DNA of 64,000 nt from Tetmemena sp. SeJ-2015 (Eukaryota; Ciliophora; Spirotrichea; Sporadotrichida; Oxytrichidae): contig JAJKFJ010022179.1 in NCBI GenBank assembly GCA_027382625.1, positions 1-64,000 on the forward strand, written 5' to 3'. Position numbers and translations under genes: made by a program. The stretch's first letter is position 1. Every line of letters starts with the position of its first letter. Below are positions 10,916 through 56,300 of the stretch, piece by piece. The notes under the pieces are model-generated. The model saw nothing but the letters and a program-made list of their open reading frames with translations, did no database searches and was not told the origin of the DNA.

Positions 10916-11980
10916 ATTACCTGAAACTTAAATAAGCAAATTACAAAGAAGGAAACAAGTAAAAATTTCTAGGAACTTTTATAGCAAAGGATTGAGAATA
11001 TAATTACAAATTTAAAAGAGTAAGCTTGTTTATCTAAAGGAAGATAATTGATATCTAAAACTCTTATTAAAAATTGCCACTGATATATTTTAGACAAATT
11101 ATTTTTACTTTAATGGAAGCTAAGCTTTATAAAGACTCAAGTCAAATATTTTCCTTAATAGCTTAGCTTTAATTATTTCTATATGTTTAAAGAAAAAATT
11201 AATAATGAACTAGACTATTCTTTTATCGCTAGCTTAAAAATATATTTGTTTGATTAAAGTAAGGTAAATTTAAATCAAAAATTTAAGGAGGACTTTAAAG
11301 TCTAAACTAGGAATTAATTTCTTTGTTTAAAAATATATATTTTAAATAAACTTTACTTTTTATAAGTAGATAGTATTATAAGAATGAAAAAAGATTTTAA
11401 TCCTGATTTATTTGTTACATTTAAATATTATTCCGCATATGCGGAAAATTTGATTTATATAAAAAGTGCTGATTCCGCATATGCGGAATGCAACAATTTA
11501 AAACTTTTTCTAGTTCTATAATACTATGAAATGAGAATAACTATATTTCTTATAAAAAAAAGTGCGGATTCCGCATATGCGGAATGCGATTTTTATATTT
11601 ATATATCTATAAAACTTAGGAATAGAATGTTTTATATTTCAAAAAACATAAATTAATAAATAAATAATTATGCTCTTTTTCATTGTAATACTAAACTAAG
11701 TGACCACATATAAATGAAGAAAAAAAAACATTATGAAAATATATTACATTTAAGTTTTATACTGTTAATTAGAAAATTATTACACGATATATTTTTGAGT
11801 TAGAAGTCTATTGCTTGAGAAATAATTGATAAACATAGAATTCATAAAATATATTATCTTACCTTAAAGGAGACAGGGCGCTAAATTGCTAGTCATAGAA
11901 ATAACTTGTTTGAGAAAAAATTTAATGTAATTATTTAATTTATTCATTCATCAGATCAAGAAATCATTTCAGTTTATATT
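10916..11980. other. AT-rich intergenic DNA
   Basis: No supported gene. It holds the three 16-bp palindromes described separately and otherwise low-complexity AT-rich sequence with many TAA runs. It probably includes the far end of the transposon and the 5' flank of the next gene. Confidence 0.5.
11431..11584. repeat. Three identical 16-bp palindromes
   Basis: The perfect palindrome ttccgcatatgcggaa occurs at 11431-11446, 11473-11488 and 11569-11584, in GC-richer islands within very AT-rich DNA. The last two are followed by the same tgc, and both are preceded by agtgc a few bases upstream. Spacing is 42 and 96 bp. This looks like binding sites for a dimeric protein or transposon subterminal repeats. 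Confidence 0.9.
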
Positions 11981-11984
11981 AAAA

Positions 11985-13927
11985 ATATTTAATCTCCCAA
12001 ATTCTTACAATTTTTACTAATTCCAACTCTGAATCCAAGAAACAGAAATGACGATGCTCACAAAGTTTAGACCAAGACTTCGCTATACAACAAAATTGAA
12101 CCTGTTGTGAGGCTTTAAGAAAGCAGAGCTTCCTTTTTACCTAATTAAGGTGGCAACTAAAGAAATATATACTAAGGATAATTATTCAAACCAAATATCA
12201 AAGAAGAAAGACCTAACATATATATTCCATTTATTACTACTCATTTTAAGCTAACCAAGTAAGAGAAAGCATAAATGAGAGCAAATAGTAGATAGAGCAG
12301 CTAATCAACAGGCAGAAAAGAGGATAATTTGATTCTGATTCATATTAGCTATTCATATATTTGTTGATCTCAACCTTGGCACCCAATAGAATAAAATATA
12401 GCAAAAGCGATTTAAAGATAGGAATCAGATCAGTTTACTTAAGTCCAATAAAGGATCCAACTAAAACAATTACATCAACTTGAGTTTAGCTGATGACTAG
12501 TACAGAAGGATCAGCTAAATTGGCTCTTAATAAAGTGGAAAGTTGAATTCCATTTAAAAAGATGAACAAAGAGTTCTGCTTCATGACCTCTCCAGTTTGG
12601 AACCAGGGGTCAGGTAAAGAAGAATGTACCTGAGAAATGATTTCTTAGGATAGCAACTCAAGTAAGCTACTACAGAATCAGGCTATCTATTACTTTATAA
12701 TAAAATTATGCTCCACACTACCTCAAATCGAGAGGCAAGAGAGTCCAATCATTCACTTATATTTTTTTCAAAGGAGCTTGCCAGCAATTTAAAAACTAGG
12801 TGAGTCAATAATAGAGTCTTAAACTCCCACTAAAAAGATGTTATCTTATACTCCTTACATTGATCAACTCAAAATTTTAGTCTTTGAGTTTTTTATTTTA
12901 AAGAAACAACTGAACAAATCTTTTCTTCCTTAAGGGGATAATTTTCCCAAAGATCCCTACTCTTCAGTTGCCCACAGAAGGATTTTAAGCGAATCTAAAA
13001 TGGACTAAACTTCCATTCCTGAGGCTATCAAATAGAGAAATTAGCAAGCCATTCAAGAATATTTACAACAGCAGGATTCTGGATTTGTTGGAAATGACTA
13101 ACTATTTTCCGACTAGATAAAAATCCACAAGCGTCAAAGATCTTCATTTGAACCGATCAACCTTGATAAAGGCTCCGCAGGCTTCATTCCTAATATAAAT
13201 TAAAACAATCCATCGCTAGTCTCTTGGCTATAGAGCAGCTCAGTTTCGAATCAAGCTACTTCATTAAGTACCTAATAGTTTAAAAGTCACTATTATTTTT
13301 TGAAAAGATAAATTAGTAGACTCCTTACAGAGAGAATCTATTTGATAGAATTATGAAGTAGAAATACATAAGCAACGAAGACCCTCCTAAGCCTTTCAAA
13401 AGCAAGCACCACTCTATAGATTTTTCTGCTCCTAAGATAACTATGAGCAAAGATAATTTACTTGAACCTTTTTAAACTTAATCTCAACAAGTTCTACCTA
13501 AAAATGATGCTGCTGCACAAATTAAACTTCCTATTGAATTCGGGTTAAGGTCAGATCCGTTAATTCCAAATTTAAATGCAAGAAATGAGATAAACTATTC
13601 TGCAGTCAAGGAGTATTCACAATCACATGCAAAGCTACCCTCACGAGAAAGGGAGAAGAAGAGCGCTTAATTTCTCAGATGTTGAGAGAACACATGACAA
13701 ATCTGTTGAAAGAGCAAAGAATTAGCATATATACAGTGAAAACTTTCAAAAAATTAGAGCACTTATTGATTAAAACTTGTGATGCTTTTTTATATTCTAG
13801 TATTTTTATTGAGATTATATTATTTCTTGACTTATTTTTTTCTTCTGATTGGTTTATAGCTGTTTATGTGCGGATTATATTTGAGAGTTTCAGTGCCGGC
13901 ATTATCGTAGGTATACCACTCACTTGA
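11985..13927 (+). CDS. Unrecognised Gln/Asn/Ser-rich gene (duplicated as a remnant at 20.2-20.8 kb)
   Basis: Long open stretches appear when TAA/TAG mean Gln: about 12000-12370 (includes FLPNQGGNQRNIYQGQ), about 12370-12830 (FKDRNQISLLKSNKG), about 12905-13340 (PYSSVAHRRILSESKMDQ) and about 13340-13680 (YISNEDPPKPFKSKHHSIDF). The piece after 13670 shifts frame (ISQMLREHMTNLLKEQR). Frame changes between pieces point to IESs or introns. There are no recognised domains, and the composition suggests a disordered regulatory or scaffold protein. Ends are approximate. A diverged copy lies upstream of the second DOMON gene, so the gene and its neighbour were duplicated together. Confidence 0.5.
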
Positions 13928-13990
13928 AAAGCTGTTAGTATAGTTGGAATGTCTGACCATTGACTTGCAGCTCAATAAGGCTAAGTTTAA
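13882..13990 (-). CDS. DOMON gene A, inverted first coding segment
   Basis: The reverse strand reads LALLSCKSMVRHSNYTNS then SSEWYTYDNAGTETL, a signal-peptide-like end and the start of a secreted domain. It stops in the pointer GAAACTCTCA (minus strand of 13882-13891), which recurs on the plus strand at 14993-15002. Joining through the pointer gives NAGTETLRMTFRIKGLP in one frame. The upstream limit, and whether a further N-terminal segment lies elsewhere, are unknown. Confidence 0.7.
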
Positions 13991-14992
13991 AGTATTATAA
14001 TCAATAATATAAAATTAAAAAAAAATATTAATAAGATAGGATATTGAGAATAAAATGCACTTTCAAAATGTCAACTTTTATTGAAAGCAAATCACTTTAT
14101 GTGTTTTTGCATAATAAGTTTAAAAGCCTCATTTCAGAAAAAAACTAATTCCTACAAAGAGAAGGTAATGTATTTTCAAGAAATATCTGGAGAACAATAT
14201 TATCAAATAAAAGCCTATATATCCCTTTTTTTTAAAATAGAACTCACATTTAAAACAGCTTAAGAACTTTTTTTTTTTTAAAAAAATTTTGGACAAAAAT
14301 TTTGTTTAGAAATTTCTAAAATAAAAATAAAACTTTTTTGAAATATTTTTTTTAAAAAACTTTTTTAAATCACTATAAAATGACTAGTATTTATCATAAA
14401 ATAGCTCAGTTTTTTTTTTAATTATGCTGTTTTCAGAATTTATTTCCTTAGGTTATCACATTTCATTTAGCTCCATTGAAACTTTTTTTGAGGAGCAGTT
14501 AGAATCTCTAAAATCTAAATATTTCCTTTATCAGAGTTAGAAACCTTAACTCTTATAATTTAATTTTAAAGAATTGAAGGTTTTGAAAATTTTTTTCCTT
14601 TAAAAAAACCCTTATAAAATTAAACTTGAGGCCTTTTTTGATAAAGATAATATTTTTTAATTTTTCCCTTTTAATTTTTTATATTTCTTAAATTTTTTGG
14701 TGTCCTCCAAAACTTCTTCTTGGAAAAAATTTAGTAAAACAAAGTAATTTTTAAATTTTTCCTTAATTTAGCCATCTATTTTAAATTAGCCAAGTTTGCG
14801 AATCCTAGTAGTACTATAACTGTTTTTTTCAGGTGCATGAGAATATAAGATCTAATTATAGTTTGATTAATAAAGTTCAAAGCTAATTACGTTAATTATC
14901 TCAGAGCCTTCCAGTTTTATTTTTAACCTTTAATCTCGAGCTCTATTTTGACCAAACTTTATCCTTTAATTTTAAGCACATTTTTTGCAAGA
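13991..14992. other. Intervening germline DNA between inverted DOMON segments (copy A)
   Basis: About 1 kb of AT-rich sequence with long A/T homopolymer runs (about 14230-14420). The last 200 bp align with the equivalent interval of copy B (21060-21275), but some 800 bp (about 14030-14790) have no counterpart there. No gene is supported. A 60-codon ORF at 14081 is not convincing. Confidence 0.5.
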
Positions 14993-15682
14993 GAAACTCT
15001 CAGAATGACATTTAGAATTAAAGGTCTTCCAATGATCAATTGGGGTAAGAGCGGAACAGATGGCTTCTATATGGGAGTAGGCTACAATTATATAATTAAA
15101 GAATAAGCTGCGGTATTCTACAATATAGATTAAATGTCTACGATATGCAAGAAGGAGATTCTACATATTGCACTCTATATTACACAAGTCCTTCTGATAC
15201 AGTACCCTGCTCCGATTCCTAAACTATTTATAAGCTACTATTCATTTTCTCTTTGCAAATTTATTATACTTTGTTGGTGACTCCCAACCCGTATTAGACG
15301 ACACTCAAAATTTGAATATGGTTGACTCAGCCATCAAAGTTTATAAGGACCCAACAACAGGCATTTAAGTAAAATATAATCTTATAAGAAAGTTTAGTCT
15401 CACGATATATTTTGTTTATTAGATGCCTTTTCTACTTTTGAGCGCCCATTATAAACATCTGACACCAACGCTGGTCAAGATTCAGATTTGAAAGCAAACT
15501 TTGGAAACTCTCTGACCTGGGCTTATGGGAAAATTAGTGGTGGAGTTGCTAAAGAGCACTCTCTAAATTTCGGCTAAGCAAGCTTCTACATAGGGGATGC
15601 CTCCTTTGCCTTCACAGACTTTGCTTCACAATTTATTATTGCACTTTGTGGAATTTACTCTGCCTCAATTATTCTGATTTGA
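14993..15682 (+). CDS. DOMON-domain surface protein A, main segment
   Basis: Follows the inverted first segment through the 10-bp pointer. It reads GLPMINWGKSGTDGFYMG and, after a 20-bp IES-like insert (pointer TCTAC at 15117/15137), DMQEGDSTYCTLYYTSPSDT. It continues to YFVGDSQPVLDDTQ and the DOMON signature STFERPL...LKANFGNSLTWAYGK. A hydrophobic C-terminus (FASQFIIALCGIYSASI) ends at TGA 15682, as in a GPI-anchor signal. The intron before AFSTFERPL begins GC rather than GT. DOMON domains bind haem or sugars in secreted proteins. Copy B at 21.3 kb has the same inverted layout. Confidence 0.7.
15117..15136. other. Candidate IES, 20 bp, pointer TCTAC
   Basis: TCTAC occurs at 15117-15121 and 15137-15141. 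Removing one copy plus the 15 bp between restores the frame from KEQAAVFY into DMQEGD, matching the paralog. No GT-AG borders fit. Confidence 0.6.
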
Positions 15683-16390
15683 GGCTTTGTTATTATCTGA
15701 AGTATATCATATAAACACCGAATTTAACTGGAAAGATTCACTATGGTTAGATATAACTCTATATAGAAAATTATTTTTAAAATCCTCAATATTATTGTTA
15801 TCTGACGGGAATAACTTTTTTTTATTTAAATAGAGGTATATTGTATTTTATAACCAAATTTGTTTTATTTATAGACTCTTAAATTTCATAGTAAAAGTAT
15901 TTCTAGATAGTTAAGGTCTCAAAGTCGTGGAGTTAATGAGATTAGAACTTAGAGGTCCACTTTTTATTATACCTAATTAAAATTGTTTTATTTAAAAAAA
16001 TGTAATACCTGCCCATTTAAGTTTTTAAAATATAAAAAATTTCAGATTAAGATTGACCTTTAATATTTAATAAAGAAGAAGCAAATTAAAATTTATTTAA
16101 TAACTAAGCATTATTTTAATTAAATTATATGAAAAGTTCAATGATTTAAGTAAAAATTTAAAATAAAATAATTAAATTAAGATCAACATAGATCATACTT
16201 TCTTATAACTTATATCATAAAGTTAGAAATGATTTTTCAAAACTAGAAAAAAAGAAATTTATTCGTTAAAGAGAGTTGTCCTCCCTTTTTATAAAATATA
16301 TTTTAGATATATGTTGGTACTAATGTGCCGCTGACTTTTTTAACTTTCTTTCCGATTGATTGATTTATTAGTTAAATGGTTTGAAGTGTA
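15683..16390. other. AT-rich intergenic, nothing recognised
   Basis: No supported ORF, repeat or RNA gene. Dominated by TTTAAA-type sequence. Confidence 0.5.
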
Positions 16391-16394
16391 AATT

Positions 16395-16664
16395 ATGGCT
16401 CACATTTAAGAGCAGTCACAGCTATTCCCCTCCCCTTTGACAGCCCCTTCATTAGCACTATTTAATCAGATGACCTTCACATACACTGCCTCCGATCCTC
16501 AGTTGGGTCTCATTTTCGAGTTCTTGGCCTGACCATATGAACCATTCATGCTCAAAAACATCTCTAAAATCTGAGGACATAAACAAACTTCATAGAGAAG
16601 AGATATGGTGATAGAATCAACAAGACACACAATTACTCACGTGATTGTGAAAATAAAGCAAAGG
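16395..16664 (+). CDS. Possible short coding segment of unknown function
   Basis: The ATG near 16395 starts MAHIQEQSQLFPSPLTAPSL and continues FTYTASDPQLGLIFEFLA. Two TGAs then fall in an otherwise plausible frame (after FEFLA and after ISKI) before a GTAAAT donor at about 16664. The GC-richer composition than its flanks supports coding. It could be a lone macronuclear-destined segment of a gene whose other segments lie elsewhere, or a decayed exon. No family is recognised. Confidence 0.3.
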
Positions 16665-16670
16665 TAAATT

Positions 16671-17633
16671 GTTAAGTCTTTAAAAAAAAGATCTGGAAAC
16701 AAATTTATTGAAAGTGAAAACTGATTGATGGGTTTTAATTTTAAACTACATACTTTTTTTTACTCTTATACATCTTATCTTTGCTATCATATATTTAATT
16801 CAGACAAATAGGCTATTAAATTTATTCGAATTAATTATATATGGCGACTTTTTTAGTAACAGAAATTGATTTTTATATATTTTTTACTTATGAATAACAG
16901 TATTTTTAATTTTACCTTGAAAAACTAATTGATTAATTTTCAGATTAATGATTTAAAGCAAGATCCTTAATTTTTTATATTAAATCGTTCTAATGTCGTT
17001 TTGGGAACTCAACTTCTTTAAATCTGCGATAATATCATAGCTAAAATAGTTTTTCTCTTCTGTAAATTTAAGGTTCAAACTCAAGTTTTTTTATGAGGGT
17101 TTTATGAACTCTTAAAGTCTTATTTAAGGACAAATTAATATCCTCAAGCAATTTAAGTCAGCAAACCAATTCAAATACTGCCAATATTCAGTAAAAATTA
17201 GCAATAAAGATCAACTAATCCTTAAATTAATCAGAAAGAAGAGAATGCAGAATAGTGCAGCCAAACTATTAAAAAAAAGCCTTGATTGAATCTCTTTTAT
17301 TAAGAATGCCTTATAACTTGGCTTGAAAAACAAACTGCTGCACCTAATGCAGATTTGAGCTGTAAAACGATTGCTAAAATCTTGAAAACAGGTAGTTAAA
17401 AAGACTAAAGACAGACTAAAATAATTCTTAATTTTGAAATAATAATTAAAATTAGATTAGCTACCCCATCCTAACTAAAGATAAGTAGGGTTTGATGAGG
17501 AGATCCTTAATGATTTAATTTTTCAATTCTTTTAATTGGCGCTTTACTTTGCTTATTTTTAAAGAATATTTGAAGATCTAGAATGTTAATCAAATTCAAA
17601 TATTTAAGATTTTTATATGGCACATACAGTTAT
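16671..17633. other. AT-rich interval with a weak plus-strand open stretch
   Basis: No firm gene. Between about 17100 and 17330 two plus frames are open and Ser/Asn/Gln-rich (for example LSQQTNSNTANIQQKLAI), but neither connects to introns or a start. The rest shows nothing. Confidence 0.4.
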
Positions 17634-19869
17634 TCAAATTTCTCTTGCATTGCGAGAGTCCGATAAATCCTTTTCTTGCTCAATAATAGACTGCAAAGTG
17701 GCCTTGGCTTCAATATATCTCTTCAAAAGAGCCTTGATGGCTGCAATTTGAATTTGGATACTCTCAACAATTTAGTTTGCAACTTTATCAGCCTCTTTTG
17801 ATTTCTCTATATCGTTGAGCAACTTCTTGACATCTTCATCAAGCACAGGTTCAACAACCTCTATTATCGCTACACGCTCAATTTGCTTGTGGAGAAGACT
17901 TTTGAGATGCGAGATGAGGTTCTTCAATACAAGTGAAGTTGACCCTTGAGTTGGGGTAAGAATTGCAAGTGACTTAACAGCCTACTAGTCAATTCCCTTC
18001 ATAATTGCTTTCAAATCTTGGATGTTGAAATTCCTGACAGATCTTGGGCCTTCTTTCTCATATTGATATATCAGAATCTCATACAGGCCTATCAAAATAT
18101 TATCACAATCTACTCTTATTTTTAGTAAGAGTAAATGCAATAAATAAATTAAATATCTATTTCTTCTTGTTCTTGATTCATTCTCTTCTTTAAAAACAAC
18201 ATTTAAATTCGCTCAGCGATTTCAAGCCATGATTAAAATAAAGTTATTTATTTCTTCTATCTGTTGATATAACTACTATAAAGAAGAATCTATAGCGAAA
18301 GGAAAACATAATCTTGTTAACTAATAATATTTAAATCAATTTCATTGTTTGAGATGAATTCTGAAAACGAAATGAATTTATCATTTAATGAAATACCTTT
18401 TAAATTGATTTAAAATTCTATTTTGATAATGTTGAAGAAATTTGAAGAGATGATGCCTTAGTTTTTGATAATCTTAGAAAGAGTTCCAAAATAGGTGTGA
18501 ATGGTCTCCGTCTCAAGCGCTGCTGCCACCTCTAGTTATTAAAATAGCTTTCACTCATTAAATTAATGAGTTCGTTCTAAATTTGAGCGGCAATTTATTC
18601 CGAACGAGCATATGTAGCCTTAAGTCTTTAGGTGGCCTCCTCAATAGTCGAGATCTACACTGGATAATACTTATCTTAGAAAAATTATTAGAATTAATAA
18701 ATTATCTTACTTTAATTATCAAATTTCACTTAGGTTAAAGTTTAAATTTTGTAAGTCAAATAATATTAGAAATTTTCAGATAGACTTATGCTTAATTAAA
18801 GAAGTTTTAAATCATCAGATTATATAGTTTTAAGCCTTAATAAATTGGGAATTGCTTTTGATAATTTAATTTCAAATTCCTATAAATTACCGATATACCG
18901 ATATATTTATTTTTACAAAAAAATTAAAATTCAAGTAATCAAAATTAATACAACTAATCATCAAACAAAGTTATTTTTCATTATGCTTATTTACAATAAT
19001 TAACAAATAGTTTTATCTTGGTACCGATAATTGCTCATGATCTCGTTTCTGCGGTTGATGTCAATGGGATAAGTGACATTGTTATCAGGAGTCCTGACAA
19101 AAATAGCCTAGTTTGACTATGCGATGATGTCATCTCTTTCTTTTTAGGTTGCTGATGAAGGTATTCTATTCAAGAGGATGTCCTTGAACAGGTTCTCTTG
19201 GCAAGTGGGAGAGCACATCATCATCTATCTCTCCAGCGCATGCTTAATTTCTTGCTCGTGCTCTTGCAACTTACTAAAAATATAAGTTATGCTATCGAAG
19301 TTCAGAGCCCCTCCCTATGCGTTTTGAGATTACTGATTATTCCTTCCAAAGCTTTGGAAGTTGCCTCCAGTGGTGTTCGATGACTACACAAACTTGAAAC
19401 CAAATCCTTAAATCAAAAATTAATAAATTATTAAACCAGATGTTGAAGAGTTGCTGGCATTAGGCTGGTTGTTGTTACTTGTTGATTAGGAGTTGTTGCC
19501 GAAGTTGGTCTGAGGATTGGAGCTTGTTGTCGCAGGATTGAATTATTGCTATCCATTTGAGTTGCTCTGAGTATTTTGAGAGGCAAAGGTTGGCTTGAAC
19601 GAACTCTACTGTTGGCCTGTGTTGCCACTATTGTTCCCAAAATTAGAGTTTGAGTTGCCAAAGTTGTTGTTGCCTGCAAAAGTAGGCTTGAAAAATTGTG
19701 AGCCCGAGGTATTGTTAGAAGAGTTCTAGCCGAACCCATTGTTGTTGCTTGAATTAGCATTGGCTTGAAAGTTTGATTAGAATCCGTTCTAATTGCTGCC
19801 TGAATTTGGAGTAAACTTGAAGCCCGTTCCAGCTCCATTGTTGTTCTGATTGGTCTGATTATTCTGCAT
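17634..19869 (-). CDS. FG-repeat nucleoporin with coiled-coil C-terminus
   Basis: The ATG at 19869 opens an Asn/Ser/Gly-rich region with FG-type repeats (GFGQNSSNN, NFGNSNSNFGNNSG, FGNNSQSTS, QSFGRNNQQ) down to about 19300, with a GTTTAA...TTAAG intron near 19438-19410. A helical part follows (SKLQEHEQEIKHALERQM, then NRIPSSATQKERDD). Further exons at about 18660-18440 (RLKATYARSEQIAAQIQNEL) and about 18095-17634 (SLLHKQIERVAIIEVVEPV, YIEAKATLQSIIEQEKDLSD) are coiled coil, ending at TGA 17634. FG repeats followed by coiled coil is the plan of central-channel nucleoporins (Nsp1/Nup62, Nup54, Nup58). I cannot say which one. Segments are collinear, separated by introns or IESs. Confidence 0.7.
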
Positions 19870-19961
19870 TCTACAATAAAATTTAGATAATGAGTAATTA
19901 TAGAATGATTGAGTCTATTTTGAATTTTAATGTAAAAATGTGCGATGGAGTCCTTACCCAA

Positions 19962-20160
19962 AGTTCTCTCTCTTTAATTTTGCTTTTATATAAATTCAAA
20001 TTCAAAATTTAATATTTTAATGATACATTTTGCTTAATCTATTTGTATAAAGTTATGCAAAGCAGATAAATTGACCGATTAAAAATATTGAAGTTAGTAA
20101 ATTGCAATTGAATGTTAAACTTAATTTTACATACAATTTAAAGATTTTAGATATGTACTT
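19962..20160. other. Intergenic, nothing recognised
   Basis: AT-rich flank between the nucleoporin promoter side and the duplicated block. Confidence 0.5.
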
Positions 20161-20835
20161 AAAAATTTAACAAAAAAATCTTTACTTCCTTAAGAGTATA
20201 ATTTCCTCTCCTACTCTTTAATTCGCCAGGGTCTTAAGTGAATCTAAAATGGACAAAACCTCTATTCCCGAAGTTATCATCCATTCAGGGAAATTAAAAT
20301 CAGCATGAGGATTAGGCTATTTAGGAAATGGCTATTTTTATTTCAAACTGATAAAAATCCAAAACTTCTTAGATCTTCATTTTAACTTAGCAAACTAGAT
20401 TAGGATACTGCTTGCAGACTTCATTCTAAACATAATTTAAAACATTCATCTTAATCTATTGGTTTAAAAAAGTTTAGTGTATAATTTTGATATTTCTTTA
20501 AGTACCAAACAGCTTTATAAATTTCATGCATTCTTTGCAAATAAAATATTGTTGATTACATACTGAAAAATCCTTACAACAATTCTTTTAGATAGCTTTA
20601 TTAACAGAAAAATATCATTAACGAAGATATTCTTAAGAGTTTCAAAAGTATCAAAAGCAAGCATCACTCTTTAGATTTTCAGAGGCAAAAATAATTTTAA
20701 TTAAGGGAAGTACTACTTCAAAAAACCCTGATACTAAAGTCTTCCATCGAATACAAAATGAGGTCAGATCCTTTAATTTCATATTTTTAATATACGAAAT
20801 TAACTCATCTGCAGTCAAAAAAAACATTTAAAAAA
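20160..20835 (+). pseudogene. Decayed second copy of the Q/N-rich gene
   Basis: It aligns with 12890-13610 (the stretch tctaaaatgga at 20247 and the AGCAAGCA...CTCTTTAGATTTT segment near 20660) but has many small deletions and stops. Only short fragments of the frame remain, so this duplicate looks dead, unlike the DOMON gene next to it. Confidence 0.55.
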
Positions 20836-20947
20836 TCATATACCTTATTTATTAAAACTTATTATTCTTTTGTAATGAGTTTTCCTTAATTCTTAATTTA
20901 TTTGCCTTCATAGTTAAACTATAAGCTGCATCAGAAATAATTATATT

Positions 20948-21055
20948 TGAGAGTTTCAGTGCCGGCATTATCGTAGGTATACCACTCACTTGAATAGCTG
21001 TTAGTGAAATTGGCATGTCTGACCATAGAATTGCAACTCACTAAGGCTAAATTAA
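20948..21055 (-). CDS. DOMON gene B, inverted first coding segment
   Basis: The reverse strand reads LALVSCNSMVRHANFTNS then SSEWYTYDNAGTETL. It ends in TGAAACTCTCA (minus strand of 20948-20958), repeated on the plus strand at 21276-21286. Joining there gives GTETLRMTLRIRGLPMINW. The layout is the same as in copy A, with only about 220 bp between the two segments. Confidence 0.75.
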
Positions 21056-21275
21056 ATTTCAAATTTAGAATTTATTTATTAATTTGCGAGTCCAAGAAGT
21101 GCTAACACTTTTTTGTTAAAGTTCATGAGAATCTAAGATTTATTTATAGTTTGATTAATAAAGCGAGAGCTAAATACGTTAATTATCTCAGATCCTTCAG
21201 CAGTTTATTTTGACTACTAATTTCGCTCTTTATTTTGACCAAACCCTTTTCATCAAATTCAATTTAATTTTTAAG

Positions 21276-21970
21276 TGAAACTCTCAGAATGACTTTGAGA
21301 ATTAGAGGCCTTCCCATGATCAATTGGGATAAGAGCGGAACAGACGGCTTCTATATGGGAATCGGCTATAATTCAATATTTAAAAATATGTGAGTAATAA
21401 AATTTACTTAAGAATAGTGAATACTAACGATATGGATGACGGAGATGCCGTTTTCTGCACCCTCTACTACACTTCTCCCTCAGATACAGTGACTTGCGCC
21501 GACTCCCAAACTATTTATCAATAATGGGAGGTTTTACATTTAGAATAAAATGTATACTTTGTTGGTGAACAGCAACCTGTTATTGACGACACAGATAACT
21601 TGAATATGGTTGGATCCGCCATAAATGTTTATAAGGATCCAACAACTGGTATTTAGGTAGACTTTAATCCATTAAGTATATTTTGGACCACTTTTATTTT
21701 TGTTTACTAGATGCATATTCTACTTTTGAGCGCCCATTATAAACAACTGACTCAAACGCTGGTCAAGACTCAGTATTGAAGGCAAACTTCGGAAACTCAC
21801 TGATTTATGCTTACGGCAAAATTAGCGGTGGCGCTGCTAAGGAGCACTTCCTGAATTTCGGTCACGCAAGTTTTTACATAGGTGATGCCTCTTTTGCCTT
21901 CACAAACTTTGCTTCTCAGTTTATATTTGCCCTCTGTGGACTTTATGCTGCCACAATTCTTCTAATTTGA
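21276..21970 (+). CDS. DOMON-domain surface protein B, main segment
   Basis: Follows the inverted segment: GLPMINWDKSGTDGFYMG. After a 35-bp IES (pointer AATA) it reads NDMDDGDAVFCTLYYTSPSD. After a 24-bp IES (pointer AATAA) it reads VYFVGEQQPVIDDTDNLNM. A 62-nt intron (21649-21710, GTATTT...ACTAG) joins in frame to DAYSTFERPLQTTDSNAGQD. The DOMON tail LKANFGNSLIYAYGK follows, then a hydrophobic end (FASQFIFALCGLYAAT) ending at TGA 21970. With the inverted N-terminal segment the protein is about 230 residues, consistent with one secreted DOMON domain plus a GPI-anchor signal. Confidence 0.8.
21385..21419. other. Candidate IES, 35 bp, pointer AATA
   Basis: AATA at 21385-21388 and 21420-21423. 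Excision of 35 bp changes a stop-containing frame into NSIFKNTNDMDDGDAVF, aligned with paralog A. Confidence 0.65.
21520..21543. other. Candidate IES, 24 bp, pointer AATAA
   Basis: AATAA at 21520-21524 and 21544-21548. The length is a multiple of three, so it is open either way. Removal shortens the loop to match the paralog better. Weaker than the others. Confidence 0.4.
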
Positions 21971-22606: not shown

Positions 22607-25011
22607 ATGTCGATGATCTCTTCTAAAGGCTGCAAATACTTTTTTGCGTTACTTTCTCTTTTGATACTGGTAAGTGTAACCATAAAAGTCCTCGTTAAAA
22701 TTAAATAAAAATATTTGTTAACTAGGGGTTTTACATTCTATTCCTGAATCAGAATTATAGGGTAGAATTATTTTAAAAAGGTGATAATTTAAAATATAAG
22801 TAAGTGGTTTAAGAGGATGGCAGATAGTGCTTAAGATTGATTTTCTTCGTTACGAAATAAATAATTTCTTATTTAATAATCCCAAAGCTGTCGTAACAGC
22901 CAAAAATCATACCATCAAAATACTCTACTTTAATATATTTTTAATTAATCCTTTTTAAGATTATAAGAGAGACTTTAGTGTTTTATTAAAATGTTTAAAT
23001 GATCTAGACCATTTCTTAAAATATTTTTCTCTAAAATGCTACAATAATTACTTTAACATAAGAAGTCTTTTCCTTATCAAAATTATTCCAATAGTTATAT
23101 TTTTGGATAAATTATTAATCCTATAAATTATCAATTTATAATGGAACTTAAATCGAAAAGCAGTCAAAAATGATAAGTATGCATATAGATAGCAGGAGTA
23201 ATGGTATTAATATTTTCCGCATTGTCAAAACTCTGCCAATTTTTGATGAAAATGGTGACATGCGATACTATGGCAACTTGGCATTTGCAATTACCCTCGC
23301 CATAGGAATAATCACCGCACTTACAGGGATCATTGGGCTAGTCATCAGTAATAAGTTTAGTAAAAAGCTCTCTATTGCAGTAAGTTTTGAAAATATATTT
23401 CCCCATTAAAATAGAAAAAGATATCACCAAATTTCGATAATCCATTTCCAATACTTGCTAAAGCAGTTTAAATCTTTAATAGTTCGCAATATTGATCTTC
23501 TGCATTTGTTGTGGACTACTTACAAGTGGAATTGTTTTTCTAGCAACTTAAGGTATTCCTTAGCAATGATAATTGTGCTTTTATAGCTGAGATAGACAAC
23601 CTTTTGCTAGCAATGTGCAGAGGAGTGAAGATATGGGAGTTCTAAGATAACAAGAACCTTCATTCCACTTAATATTATATTTATTCATAACTGGATGATC
23701 TACTCTGCAAACTATGATGTGCTTTTATAAAGCTTGGCAGCTGAGAAGATGTGTACTGACAGATGCTTATGTGACTACACAATCTATAATCCCTCTCAGT
23801 GGTCAGAAAAAACACTAAACCAGTTTGGAAGAACGCAGCAAACTATATACGTCGATGGAAATATTTAGTCTTCAGGCATCAATGATCAAGAATCTAATAC
23901 TCGGGAGCCTTTGAGATTCACAACTAAAGATGGTTACACTAACTTTTACAAGTGCTATCAGTCTCTATTGCAAGAAAATTAAATTAAATACGATATCAAC
24001 CCCGAAAGCTTCAAGATAGCACAGAGTTTGGAAATGACACTGGGATGTAATAGCTTCTGCGAAAATTCGGCTTTCTATATATTTGAAAGTATAGACTAAG
24101 GTATGCCTCAAGACTAATGCAACCTAAAAGTAAAGCGAATTTTTACTCTGATTTATGAAAGCTCAGCTGCTATAATGATCTGTGCCTTTGTTTTCAGCTT
24201 CATCACAATTTTCGTCTACATCTTTATCTACAAGACTAAACTTATAATTGAACTTAATAAATTTTTATCTTTGTAATATTTTCTTCTCTTGAATGAATTG
24301 CATGGATATACATTTTATTTCCTCTTTCACATGATTAATTGCAATGTATTGATTAAAGTTTAGAGAATATGAGCTCTACAAAAAGCTAAATAACTCATCG
24401 GGGAGCCATCATTCTATGAATGTTGAAAACCTCGAAGATGGAGATATTGGAAGGGGCTAATAGGAACCAAGCTTCAAAAGAATTGACAAAGTTACCTCCA
24501 CTTCCCCTTCACCAGTCAAGAGTGCACATGATTCTATGAAATACGGTAAACAAAGACAGAGAGAAGAATTCAAAGCGGAAAATGATGATACACAAGAAGC
24601 TGAAAATATATACAATATTTTTGGATGTTTTAATTATCTTAAAATGAAATGGAAATGGAAGAAGCTGATCACCAGTCCAAATTAGGTTCAATCAGTTGTT
24701 TGAGAATGGATCTGATCAGTTTAATGACCACAAGCAAATGAAAATAAGCGTTTTAGCTCATAAAATTTGGAAGACACTTTATAAATATTATTTAATTCTT
24801 ATAAATAAAGTATGTCCATTAACTATTCTATAAAAAAAGAGAACTTAACTAAAACATTCATAAGAAGTCTTAAATTTTTATTTAGTTAAATATAGATTTT
24901 TAATATAATGCAACTTTTATTTTTAAATTTAAAGATGATGATCAGCTTAGAGTTGCAGCTTAGTCTGACGAGACACCAGGATCAGCGAAGTAGTTAGTTA
25001 ATCAAATTTGA
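22607..25011 (+). CDS. Tetraspanin-like protein 1
   Basis: Exon 1 (22607) encodes MSMISSKGCKYFFALLSLLI up to a GTAAGTG donor. A second membrane segment is at 23280-23350 (ITLAIGIITALTGIIGL) and a third at 23485-23545 (ILIFCICCGLLTSGIVFL). The large outer loop (23690-24160) has a paired Cys motif (CTDRCLCDY), the family element TLNQFGRT, and a second Cys pair (GCNSFCENSAF). A fourth membrane segment ends the domain (IMICAFVFSFITIFVYI), then a charged tail runs to TGA 25011. It has four membrane spans and a Cys-rich loop between the last two, as in tetraspanins, though without a clear CCG. Frames shift between pieces, so introns and IESs interrupt it. It is first in an array of five relatives. 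Confidence 0.65.
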
Positions 25012-33640: not shown

Positions 33641-36600
33641 ATGTCTAATTTTTAATAATATTTCATTAATAGCCAAAGCAAGATACCTGAATTTTACAAC
33701 CACCATTAATCTGCCCTCACTTCATCGACTTAGCCAAATGAGAGCTAGATGAATTCACTAAAAGCCTCCATGAAGATATAATTTCATCTTTTAATTAGAC
33801 TTTAAAGTAAGGCGAAGGCCAGAGCTCGAAGTTCATGGATTGAAGGATAAAGTAAAGGTCTTCTCAGCGCTTGTAGGATGCTATAGAGTCACAAACTTCG
33901 TCCCTCCCTCAAGGTTAAACAAATATTTCATTTTTATATGGTATGACAAGCTCAATGAGCAACACTGGTTTATTTCAGGGAGTAAATTAAAAAACAGCAA
34001 ACAGCATTCAAAGCATGCAGCTGAATTCAGAGAAAGCCATCCGCTAGATATATACATCACAGAATGTCCGCCCACGAAACCATCTCCTCCAATCCTAGAA
34101 CCTTAATTAGAATCTATTTTATAAATATTAGCATGATGAATGAATCACCAATAACCGGGGTCTTTATCTCCTTAGTCTCAACACAGCAGCTATTTAAGTG
34201 AACCAAATAAATAGCTCCTAAACTAGCGATCTCAACCTTAGCTAAGTGGCTAGTACCTGCAACTTAAAAAAGCTATCAATAGTTAGATCCCAACTACTGC
34301 TAATTATGGAAATGAATAAATAAGCACAAATCCAATCAAAATTCAAAATTAAAAGCACGATCCTGATATCAATCGATATGGAGCCTAGAGTTTCTTACTT
34401 AGTAAGATGCAGGCATCTTAAAGCCTTACTTCCCTTCAATAAAAAATTAGAATTTTTTGTTTTGACATTTTTAATAAAACAGTTTCTAAAGATAGTAAAC
34501 TTAAGTTGTCCATTAGGAAAGCTTATCAGTTATCAAAAAATAAACAAAAGATCCTTTAATAAATTTAATGAAAGCAAACAAATCTGTCTTCAATCTCAAG
34601 TGGAATGCCTTCAATCAGATTCACTGCAAGAGAAATAAACCAAAAGAATACTAAAAAGGTAGAAGAAGTCAAACCAATATGGCCCGTTAAATAATTTAAT
34701 TGTATATAGCTAAGTTAAAGAAAGAGAAATTAAATTCTAAAATTTACAAGAGTAGTACAAGCAACTCAAAGTTCAAGAGGAAGAAGATGCCAAAAAAATG
34801 AAGCTAGTAGAAAAGCAAAATAGAATTCTGGCCAGAGCAGCTGCTGAGAAAGAAAAGAACACCGTAAAGGCACCTCAATAATTTAATTTGTCTTCAAATC
34901 GTAAAATAAGTTGAAAGATTCGATGCTCCATTTTTCTATTTAGGTAATAGGGATTAAGTGAGTTCAGCAGGCTCTTTAATACCTTATTAAATTATATTTA
35001 GAAAACGATATATTTATTTGGATTTATCTATATTTATGATGTATTTTACCTGGAGGCAACAGTAGAATTCGGACTTTCACATAGAATAACAATTTCGTGC
35101 AAAATCTGATAATCTAGCCAGAAGATCTAGCTCATAAACTCAAGATAATATTTGATGAATTTAAATTTATTTAAGATCCTAGATCTGATAATCAGATAGA
35201 CACCATAATGCAAAAAGTTGAAGATCTTATTGCCTAGAAGCAAAGTAAGTCCTATTTAAATGTTGCGTTTTTTAAGTTAATTTTATTTTATATAGGCGAG
35301 CACATTTATAATCTTAAGACTACTTTAAGGAGCTCAAATAATTCTAAACCAAATCTAAATTAAGAAGGTCCAGCTTCAAACCTCAAATAAGATCATGAGT
35401 AATAGGTCCATAATTAAATTGAGAATGAGCTTAAATAGAAACAAACTCCAAAATTTGTTCCTGATTTAGAATAAAATGGAGCCATGAAGGCCACTAATGA
35501 ATAGATTTCGCCAACAAATTAACGGAAGTAACAACTAAAGAATTTATTTTACTTTAAATTTTAACCTCAAACCAATAATGGGAACTATGAATCCTCTCAA
35601 ATACAATTGTGCGCTTACTTCTTACTTTACTATTTTCTTAAATATAACAGTCTCCCTCTGTGCTTACTATCTGATAGCGATGTGAGTGTTTCTCTGGAAA
35701 ATCCAATCAAAGGTATTTTAGCAGATTAAAATCAATAAGAGAAGTAAAGATAGACTTAGACCATCAAAAATAATTATTTCTATAATTTATAATTCATCAA
35801 GAAAAAAGTGACTATTAATCCCAAGAAAGAGATAATGGTTAGTAAACTAGAAACTCTTAAATTTAAAAGAATAGTTCTACTCCTCATCAGAGTAAAGGAG
35901 AGGTTGAGAGGCAGCCAAATGGCAGTGAACGGCTTAATCTAAACTTAATAAGCATGGCTTACTCTGATATCATGATCCAAATCATGAAAACTCTTTATAT
36001 TTAAATTTACTCCTTACAGCCGAAAACTTTTAGATAAGACCTTTATCTAGTTTTAAATTGTCCAAAAATACTCTTAAAACGGTGTAGCTTAATCTTGAAA
36101 GAAAAAAACTAAAAAGAGATCAATGAAATTTTAGTTATTATAGAATTTGAATATGTGTATTTTAATTTCTTGAAGATTCTAATGCATCATCGTTGCCTTC
36201 TCTAATCCATAGTCTAATTAAGGAATCTAAAAAGTCCTTAAAGCAGACCAAAGCTCTCTGCCTCGAAGGAAGGGAGCCAACGAGACTTTAAGTTAAAGTC
36301 ATTAAGCGATAATTTTCGCATATAATATAAAGATCACCTTCAAGGAGAGCAACTTTTAGAGAAAACATGCTTCACTATTATTATTCATTTTCTATGCTAA
36401 AGTAGACTCTTCGAAGTGGAACTAGAGATTTTAGTAAGTTAATTGGAAGGAGAACTCTTTAAGAAAGAGATAGTTTAAACCTTGATGCAGATGATGAGAC
36501 AGAGGAGTACTCAAATAATTCAAAACAAACTTAAAATTTATTAAGGAATTAGTACGTGCAATTTATTCAGGTTAAAAATATAGTGAAGCCTTAAATATCT

Positions 36601-53394: not shown

Positions 53395-56300
53395 TCATTT
53401 GTTATTTTTATTCAAATCTTGTCTATCATAGTTTTATATTTTCAGCCATGAAGCATACTTTCCATTTAATTTAGAAATTCTTTCACTCACTTCAACTCTA
53501 AGAAATGAATAAATCTATTAATTTATCTATCGTATCCATCTGCTCTAAGGTAGTGTCCCATGCTTTAATCCATCTTTCCATATATAAATGTGTGTTTTTC
53601 AAATCTGAAATCTTTAAGAGCATCTCTCTTCTATCCTATTTCTATGACTGTCAAGAACTTCTGCTCTATGTTTTCTTGTAGCTTGTCTAACTTTTTACTT
53701 TCCTTCTTTTGAATCTTATCTATGACTTTCCCATCTTGCCTCAGTGTTCGTCTCTCAGTAACGCACTCTTTGCTAATGGCCTAAAGCTTTTAGAGAATTA
53801 ACTCTTTCTCAGAAGCAGGTATAGCATAGCTCTCACTCTGTTATAAAATGTCTTAATTTAGTTTTAGAGTTGAATGATTCCTCTGTGTATTCATAAGAGG
53901 TTAGGTATAATCTCTTTAAGTTTAGGGTATTGGAAAATTTAGAGGAGAATTGTTTTCTGCGTGAAATCTCTCAGTATTAGGTCCATTGTTTAGCTGGCCA
54001 GGGTCTTATTTTTTATTCATTAAAAATGGAATGCGTCTTTCTGAGTCAATCTTATGTAGCTATTAAGGAGTGTGATTCAAAAGCATGATCGTAGGCCTGC
54101 GAGAACTTGAAGTGCCTGGTCTTGTTGTTTGAGGAAAGTTTTGATGATGAAGTTTAGAGTACGCTTGAATTTGTTTCAGACTCCTCAAATGATTTTTATT
54201 GTTGATTAAGTTCTCAGAAAAAGTCTTCTAGGAAGAGTTGAAAGCTGTATGTGGCCTAGTAGTTGCACTCATTCCTCTCGTGAAGTTAGATAATCTCGCC
54301 GTTGAAATTCTCTCTTTCGCATCTACAGTTTTTTGTGTGGAGGCTATGTTTCCAACCTTCGCAGAAACTAATCTGCTTTGGATTCCTTTAAGCTTTAGGA
54401 AGTTACCTTGAGAGTCCTTCTTAGTAATGTTCTAGCCATTAATATTTTCCTACTCAACTTCTAAGAATTAAATCTTCTTGGCTGAGTGAGGAATAGCACT
54501 TGGGATTCTTGAATTCTTGGCCTTGAAAATTGCCTTGTCATTTCTCAAGTCTACAGTCTATTCGGCTTTCTTTTATTCTTATATCTCACAAAAATAAGCA
54601 TAATATTTTCATTAATATCTTCCCAACCTTTGTCATATCAAATGCTGCTATATTTGGACTTTAGATCTGCAAACTCTTCTATTAGCCATTTATATGTCGG
54701 TTAAACATTTTAATTTCATATGCCTACCTCTCCTTATCTATCTTCCCGATTGAGGAGTCAGTTATCAACTATGAAGGATTAGGATGAGTTGAAATGATAT
54801 TCGTACTAGCGAACTTAGTTTATGGTTTTAGCTAAGCTTTGGCCATCGTCAAATCACTAATGTTGAGGAATTCATCTCCCTCCGCTAAAGCTTACAAGTC
54901 TTAATCAATATACTCTTGATCTTCAGTTTCATCTGGCTCTTGAGATTAGCTCTAGCTATTTGGATTTTGCACCTTCCTTTTGACAAAGATTTGGCGTTCG
55001 AGGTCGATAGGCTCTGATTGTATTTTCTTCTTCTGATTGAGGATATCCTTCTTTCTCATTTCTGGAATGTAAGCTGCGTTTCTCTTTTTGTTCAACTCCA
55101 TCTGTATTATCTTCTCTTTCTTAGCTTCTTTTACTTGCTTTTCTAAAGTCTTCTTTGCTTCCTCTAGTAAGAAATTGGTTGATAGTGGCTGTCTATTATC
55201 ATTTTTAGATACACACTTAACTAAATACACTTTTTAATAATTTTTAGGGTTTTGCGATGAATAAAATTTCTCTAGTTGCTTGCTCTTCCGATTGGTGTTA
55301 TGAAGCAGTCCTAATTTTGCAGTGTCTTAGTTTTCTCTTAGCAATGCAAGAAATTCACTTGGGCCTTTGAAAAGCTTCTTTTCATTTTTGAATTCCCTGA
55401 CAATTTGAGAGTTTCTCTAAACTGAGAGATGTTTGTGGGAGTAGCTAGAGGAGGTGTCATTATGCTTCCTCATAAACTTATTCACATCATCATCTTCTTC
55501 CTGGTTATTATCATCTGAGGCTTTTCTATTTCTATCATAGATTTCCTGAATCAAATCTTATTTCTGTTGTGTCACTGACTCTCGAGGAAGAGAAGAGCTT
55601 CTTGGATACAAACTTGTTCAAAAAAAATTATAGAAATATACAAAATAATATTGAAATAATATTTCTTAATTTTGTTCTGCTACTCCTAGCTGTTTGATTT
55701 TACTAGTTGATTTCAAAATTGACTTTGATGATTTCATGTTCAGGAGAGCACTCTTTTTCAATTTTGCGTTGGAGTTTAAGATCATTTTCAGAGGCTAGAG
55801 ATCTTTAAATATCTTAGTCCACGAATATCAAGCTCCTTTTGTTCTAATAAAAATGTAACTTTTCCATAGTAAAATAATGATGATGAATTATCTTAGGAGG
55901 GCTTTGATTGAAATTGATATGAATCTACTCTATCTGCTCTGGATCGATCTCTTCTCCTTCTTTCGAAGGATGAGTGTAGAAATTAATCTGATTGAGGATG
56001 GATTCTTACGAGTTAGAAGAATACATTTCTTTTCTCTAGTGCTCTGTAAAAGCTTTGAAGCCGCTCAGTTCGATGTGGTTAACTGAATAGTCTGGCACAT
56101 AGTCTTTCAAGTCTATATCTTTCATTAACTTTAGTAGATTCAATAAGATAGAATAACAAATTATACTTGCTTTTGTCAAAGGGGCGAATGTCAAAAGCGT
56201 GAATACTGGCAGTTTTGAAATTCTTTTTGTTGAACAGCTCCCTAGTTGTCTTAGGTCTGTGCTTCTCCTCTTTAATTCTCATAATCTACGATTTAGAAAT

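Follow-up and report, generated by a model that had tools for sequence, protein, structure and literature searches.

Structure of gene A at the locus

The window, the whole stretch of 64,000 nucleotides analysed here, corresponded to bases 1-64000 of contig C3033 (70,619 bases) in an assembly of 146 Mb and 5213 contigs. When genetic code tables 1, 6, 10 and 11 were compared, table 6, in which TAA and TAG encode Q, alone yielded long frames. The telomere (C4A4) repeat pattern GGGGTTTTGGGGTTTTGGGG was matched 67 times in the assembly, overlapping matches included, and several of these were at contig ends. Taken together, the code and the repeat matches fit a spirotrich ciliate and its germline genome.

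Gene A consisted of six segments lying in the germline order MDS2(-), IES, MDS1(-) and MDS3(+) to MDS6(+), the last four being separated by three short IESs (Table 1). Segments of one gene were thus found in different orientations, as in a scrambled gene; that MDS1-2 on the minus strand and MDS3-6 on the plus strand belong to one protein was seen from the match to the protein P0001 and to paralog B, described below. One flip between the two copies of the 10-bp word GAAACTCTCA restores the MDS order, with four ordinary IESs then removed at the pointers AAACTT, AAT, TA and TA, both of the 2-bp TA pointers being chosen to keep the frame. The six joined segments gave 230 codons with four in-frame TAA/TAG codons and a final TGA.

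Table 1. Positions of the segments, pointers and IESs of gene A and paralog B in the window
Feature	Position	Strand	Basis
Gene A MDS2, N-terminal coding segment including pointers	13882-13988	-	Frame; match to B and P0001
MDS2/MDS3 pointer copy in MDS2, GAAACTCTCA	13882-13891	-	
MDS1/MDS2 pointer copy in MDS2, AAACTT	13983-13988	-	
Ordinary IES between MDS1 and MDS2, 803 bp, inside the inverted block	13989-14791	.	Between two AAACTT copies
Gene A MDS1, 5' region and signal peptide start	14792-14990 (end near 14990 approximate)	-	Conserved with B
AAACTT pointer copy in MDS1	14792-14797	-	
Gene A ATG, in MDS1	14836-14838	-	
Gene A MDS3, starts with GAAACTCTCA (14993-15002), ends with AAT	14993-15088	+	
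Gene A MDS4, starts with AAT, ends with TA	15133-15230	+	
Gene A MDS5, TA at both ends	15267-15371	+	
Gene A MDS6	15420-15827	+	Far end set by end of A/B similarity
Gene A stop TGA, in MDS6	15680-15682	+	
Paralog B MDS2, GAAACTCTCA at 20948-20957 (-), match extends to 11 bp	20948-21053	-	
Paralog B IES between MDS1 and MDS2, 27 bp (803 bp in A)	21054-21080		
Paralog B MDS1, ATG 21124-21126, pointer AATT 21081-21084	21081-21275 (end near 21275 approximate)	-	
Paralog B second GAAACTCTCA copy	21277-21286	+	
Paralog B MDS3 to MDS6, three short IESs, to stop codon	21277-21970	+	

The original prediction had taken the minus-strand stretch 13882-13990 as the first coding segment. This assignment was rejected, as the start codon and signal peptide sit on the same strand at 14792-14838, in MDS1, within the presumed spacer. 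The stretch is instead MDS2, which stops not at 13990 but at 13988, where it ends in the 6-bp pointer AAACTT common to MDS1. On the minus strand, MDS1 of both genes encodes an initiating ATG and the first part of a signal peptide (MHLKKTVIVLLGFA in A, MNFNKKVLALLGLA in B); its pointer to MDS2 is AAACTT in gene A and AATT in paralog B. A long plus-strand frame running into MDS3 (14867-15280) was judged to be a chance frame because in A as well as in B the opposite strand there encodes the start codon and signal peptide just described. Alignment of gene A with paralog B showed that the stretch just upstream of MDS3 is conserved.

The inverted join and its pointer

The other elements of the prediction, that the same word ends both segments on opposite strands and that the reading is continuous across it, were confirmed. 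The copies of GAAACTCTCA at 13882-13891 (-) and 14993-15002 (+) form an inverted repeat that is in frame at the scrambled join, and joining through one 10-bp copy under table 6 left an open frame reading ...YTYDNAGTETLRMTFRIKGLP.... The window held five copies of GAAACTCTCA, compared with a mean of 0.24 and a maximum of 2 in 100 shuffles, and four of the five were the junctions of gene A and paralog B. An in-register match as long as the pointer of gene A occurred in 2 of 20000 shuffle pairs and one as long as the 11 bp of paralog B in none of 20000, in windows placed around the pointer post hoc, after it had already been seen. The fifth copy, at 55406-55415 (-), was unexplained and is possibly due to chance.

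Paralog B and selection on the two blocks

Paralog B showed the same layout as gene A and had its own intact frame, with 80% protein identity to A. Over 230 codons, the comparison of A and B gave dN of 0.113, dS of 0.67 and dN/dS of 0.168. The ratio was 0.286 in the inverted block (46 codons) and 0.150 in the upright block (184 codons); the loosest segment was MDS1 with 0.43 (13 codons), and all six segments stayed below 0.5. The inverted and upright blocks are thus both under purifying selection and constrained as one protein. A second related pair, 12956-13424 and 20210-20679 (66% identity), adjoined A and B; the duplication may therefore have carried more than one gene.

Joined relatives and nature of the protein

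An early join of gene A, containing small errors at MDS4/5 and MDS5/6, was searched against 5.8 billion proteins, and P0001 was the sole match at E <=10. This 220-aa protein, encoded on a contig of 1015 bp, aligned to 97% of the query at 55% identity (E 3.1e-70). P0001 was 60% identical to the final join of A and collinear with it through all five joins. It started 8 residues later and showed length differences of 3 residues at MDS4/5 and 1 residue at MDS5/6, precisely the two joins with 2-bp TA pointers. The size of its contig fits a one-gene nanochromosome, while the source of the contig may be DNA or RNA. Out of 3456 candidates, a profile built from five joined sequences added a single protein, the more distant P0002. 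In the assembly itself, the protein searches (3, 6 and 17 matches) gave no full-length joined gene among their matches, and the joined string had no match at <=1 mismatch.

The relation to the DOMON domain was examined with the Pfam model. P0001 matched it with an E value of 3.8e-5 and 24.3 bits, under the curated cut-off of 32.7, and the joined A gave no match up to E 10, so that neither gave a match over the cut-off, the mark of a DOMON domain. Matches at E <=1 were obtained for three of the five aligned family members, and P0002 carried a precomputed DOMON label. Nine matches were obtained when the model was searched against the genome, none of which was A, B, C, D, F, G or H (the further copies are described below). 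Two tandem, stronger matches over the Pfam cut-off lay on contig C3294 at 18630-18893 and 24677-24934. For P0001 the predicted structure was of low quality (mean pLDDT 42.4), which made the structure search uninformative on the DOMON beta-sandwich fold, and the profile search of solved structures returned no match. "DOMON-like" is the most that these comparisons allow for the putative product. A signal peptide and a hydrophobic C-terminus, both read by eye, suggest that the protein may be secreted or membrane-anchored.

Other copies with the inverted layout

The orientation of the N block and the core was scanned with three small profiles on 12 stretches, of which one lay in the window and contained both A and B, while the other 11 were taken from the genome. 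Both parts scored strongly at seven placements (A, B, C, D, F, G and H), and in 7 of 7 they lay on opposite strands; these represent six distinct sequences and four paralog groups. As four of the five profile sequences derive from these same loci, the finding of the loci is not independent, whereas the strand layout is. The scan gave no match at E <=0.5 on C3294, C3781, C1433 and C616, and on C937 only a weak match with no usable pair of N block and core; none of the five stretches is informative on orientation. Two stretches looked upright. On C3106, the core and a weak N-block match (E 0.07) shared one strand, and on C3221 the upright layout was seen by eye only, the N block not being found by the profile. 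The C3106 locus, about 33860-34400, is a DOMON-like gene with N block and core on one strand, and it is a possible upright relative able to polarise the inversion.

Copy C, at 6496-8518 of contig C3057, had its N segment on one strand and the remainder on the other. Its coding sequence differed from that of A by one nonsynonymous and no synonymous change, and in the surrounding 9 kb 29 of 91 alignment windows had <90% identity; copy C may represent the other haplotype. The window at 12020-20941 had its 9-kb second copy at 1435-10364 of C3057 with 90.8% identity and a mosaic divergence: identity was close to 100% over long stretches and 33-89% per 100 columns in others. The coding sequences of A and C showed zero synonymous differences, yet the DNA at 15846-17669 was mostly near 80% identical. 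The segment 307-12019 of the window (about 11.7 kb) was missing from C3057, where the counterpart of 306 came within a few bases after that of 12020.

Copy D, near 10916-11981 of C3057, had 32% protein identity to A. Its N segment was on the strand opposite to the core, with a likely signal peptide, read by eye, on the N strand. The pointer candidate was the in-frame 8-bp word ATCTCTAC at 11974 (+) and 11639 (-); this pointer is less sure, since a match as long as its 8 bp occurred in 194 of 20000 shuffle pairs. Copies F (C4417) and H (C1997) showed 100% identity across 2000 bases, and copy G (C430) matched F at 92.6%. All three showed the inversion as in A, with the pointer TAGATGGAACT in F and H and AATAGATGGAACT in G. 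No IES interrupted the reading from signal peptide to N segment in F.

Position of the join and origin of the inversion

Gene A, its six-segment model and the relatives were all based on one protein alignment. On protein alignment, the pointer of A and B covers E-T-L(-R), directly after the G-T that closes the pointer of F and G (I-D-G-T), and the pointer of D covers D-L-Y at the site of A. The join thus falls within about four codons across the paralogs, and the pointers, 8-13 bp long, differ between the inverted groups: GAAACTCTCA in A and B, ATCTCTAC in D, TAGATGGAACT in F and H, and AATAGATGGAACT in G.

A tree was drawn from eight core-domain rows and 57 columns; C, H, P0002 and the DOMON matches on C3294 (two), C3781 (two), C1433, C616 and C937 were left out. 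The inverted rows needed two changes in the tree as drawn and one change in 9% of 200 bootstrap trees. None of the five inner branches was starred, and the tree did not settle whether the inversion had a single or a repeated origin. With two upright-looking relatives, C3221 (by eye only) and C3106 (weak match), the change may have run in either direction.

From this material, one old inversion of the 5' block may have been inherited through duplications into at least four paralog groups, with the join staying at a near-constant codon position while the pointer was rewritten, the IES of the block gained or lost and the spacer changed between 803 and 27 bp. We give this proposal an even chance, because of the two upright-looking relatives and the unsettled tree. 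If it is true, the position of the join has been inherited independently of the pointer sequence, and reversal of the scrambled state is difficult even when paralogs have diverged deeply.

Interpretation of the inverted layout

Gene A is very probably the germline form of a scrambled DOMON-like gene with a signal peptide, whose MDS1-2 block would be inverted at GAAACTCTCA in the developing macronucleus and whose IESs would be excised. The predicted developmental flip of an inverted MDS held up as the best reading, on the grounds of the collinear P0001, the purifying selection and the repeated layout; the inverted unit had to be changed to MDS1 plus MDS2. In the proposed course, the ordinary IESs would leave first at the direct-repeat pointers AAACTT, AAT, TA and TA. 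The block between the inverted GAAACTCTCA copies would then flip by recombination at the pointer, with one copy retained at the MDS2/MDS3 join. A nanochromosome about 1 kb long and carrying 230 codons is predicted as the product. The sequence itself shows the segments, the pointers and the frame, together with their conservation in paralogs and the collinearity of P0001. By analogy with other hypotrichs, we infer that the flip takes place during development and that template RNA would guide the joining; timing, guide RNA and enzyme are all presumed.

Other explanations of the layout were considered. The germline frame of gene A is interrupted at several places in the manner of a pseudogene, which is what a broken, unused gene with an accidentally flipped front part would look like. 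Such a gene would not be expected to stay open for 230 codons when joined, to show a dN/dS of 0.168 between A and B with each of the six segments below 0.5, or to have in B a counterpart that is laid out alike and whose frame is intact, and we regard this explanation as very improbable. The assembly is fragmented into 5213 contigs and contains duplicate copies, as seen from the identity of F and H over 2000 bases, and the inversion might on this account have been produced in assembly. An artefact is, however, exceedingly improbable for a layout common to six distinct sequences on several contigs, including the far-diverged B and D with 80% and 32% protein identity to A.

The DNA sequence by itself would also be compatible with separate transcription of the two strands followed by joining as RNA (trans-splicing). 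Against this stand the repeated word at the join, which is the mark of DNA pointers, and the fact that the word differs between paralogs with the join nearly in place. P0001 is moreover encoded on one 1015-bp contig, which may be derived from either DNA or RNA. We attach hardly any probability to trans-splicing.

Comparison with known scrambled genes

In the general scheme, each join is marked by a pointer of which a single copy is retained, and long template RNAs direct the process (PMC9797194). The closest precedent is actin I of Stylonychia lemnae. Inversion of segments 1-2 (or 3-10) is needed there, and MDS1 and MDS2 form an inverted block with an ordinary IES between them, as in gene A; the pointers range from 3 to 19 bp, and permuted molecules are mostly already without ordinary IESs (PMC2394655). 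Actin I additionally requires translocation of MDS9 and of its inverted block, whereas one flip is enough for gene A, and partly processed molecules were sequenced, whereas gene A is known from germline sequence alone (PMC2394655).

A study of orthologs of Oxytricha and Tetmemena reports that the junction position is kept while most pointer sequences differ, and that scrambled genes belong to larger paralog groups, both of which resemble the present family (PMC9797194). Scrambled pointers are described there as positionally more conserved than nonscrambled ones between the two genera. That study concerns orthologs between species, while our comparison concerns paralogs within one germline genome and one inverted join. 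In a further survey, of spirotrichs, the inversion class makes up 69.4% of the scrambled nanochromosomes of Strombidium cf. sulcatum, against 45.0% for Euplotes vannus, 37.7% for Halteria grandinella and 21.4% for Oxytricha trifallax (PMC10901763). These are genome-wide inversion counts in which no gene family is followed, whereas one family was followed here. Inverted scrambled genes are already well known, and the inversion shared by paralogs is the part worth following.

Scrambled genes are usually compared between species. Paralogs with the same inversion and different pointers offer a direct test of what determines the junction, the pointer letters or information from elsewhere, for instance template RNA. 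The shared inversion is relevant, too, to a proposed ratchet whereby scrambling builds up and seldom reverts. Searches of the literature on DOMON in ciliates and on inverted MDSs in gene families gave no matching title among those listed, which is weak evidence of absence. Elsewhere in the window, at about 11170-11640, the short peptide words SAYAE, IPHMRN and FRICGI were seen by eye to be repeated in overlapping frames; as these frames belong to both strands, the repetition points to a possible short palindromic DNA repeat.
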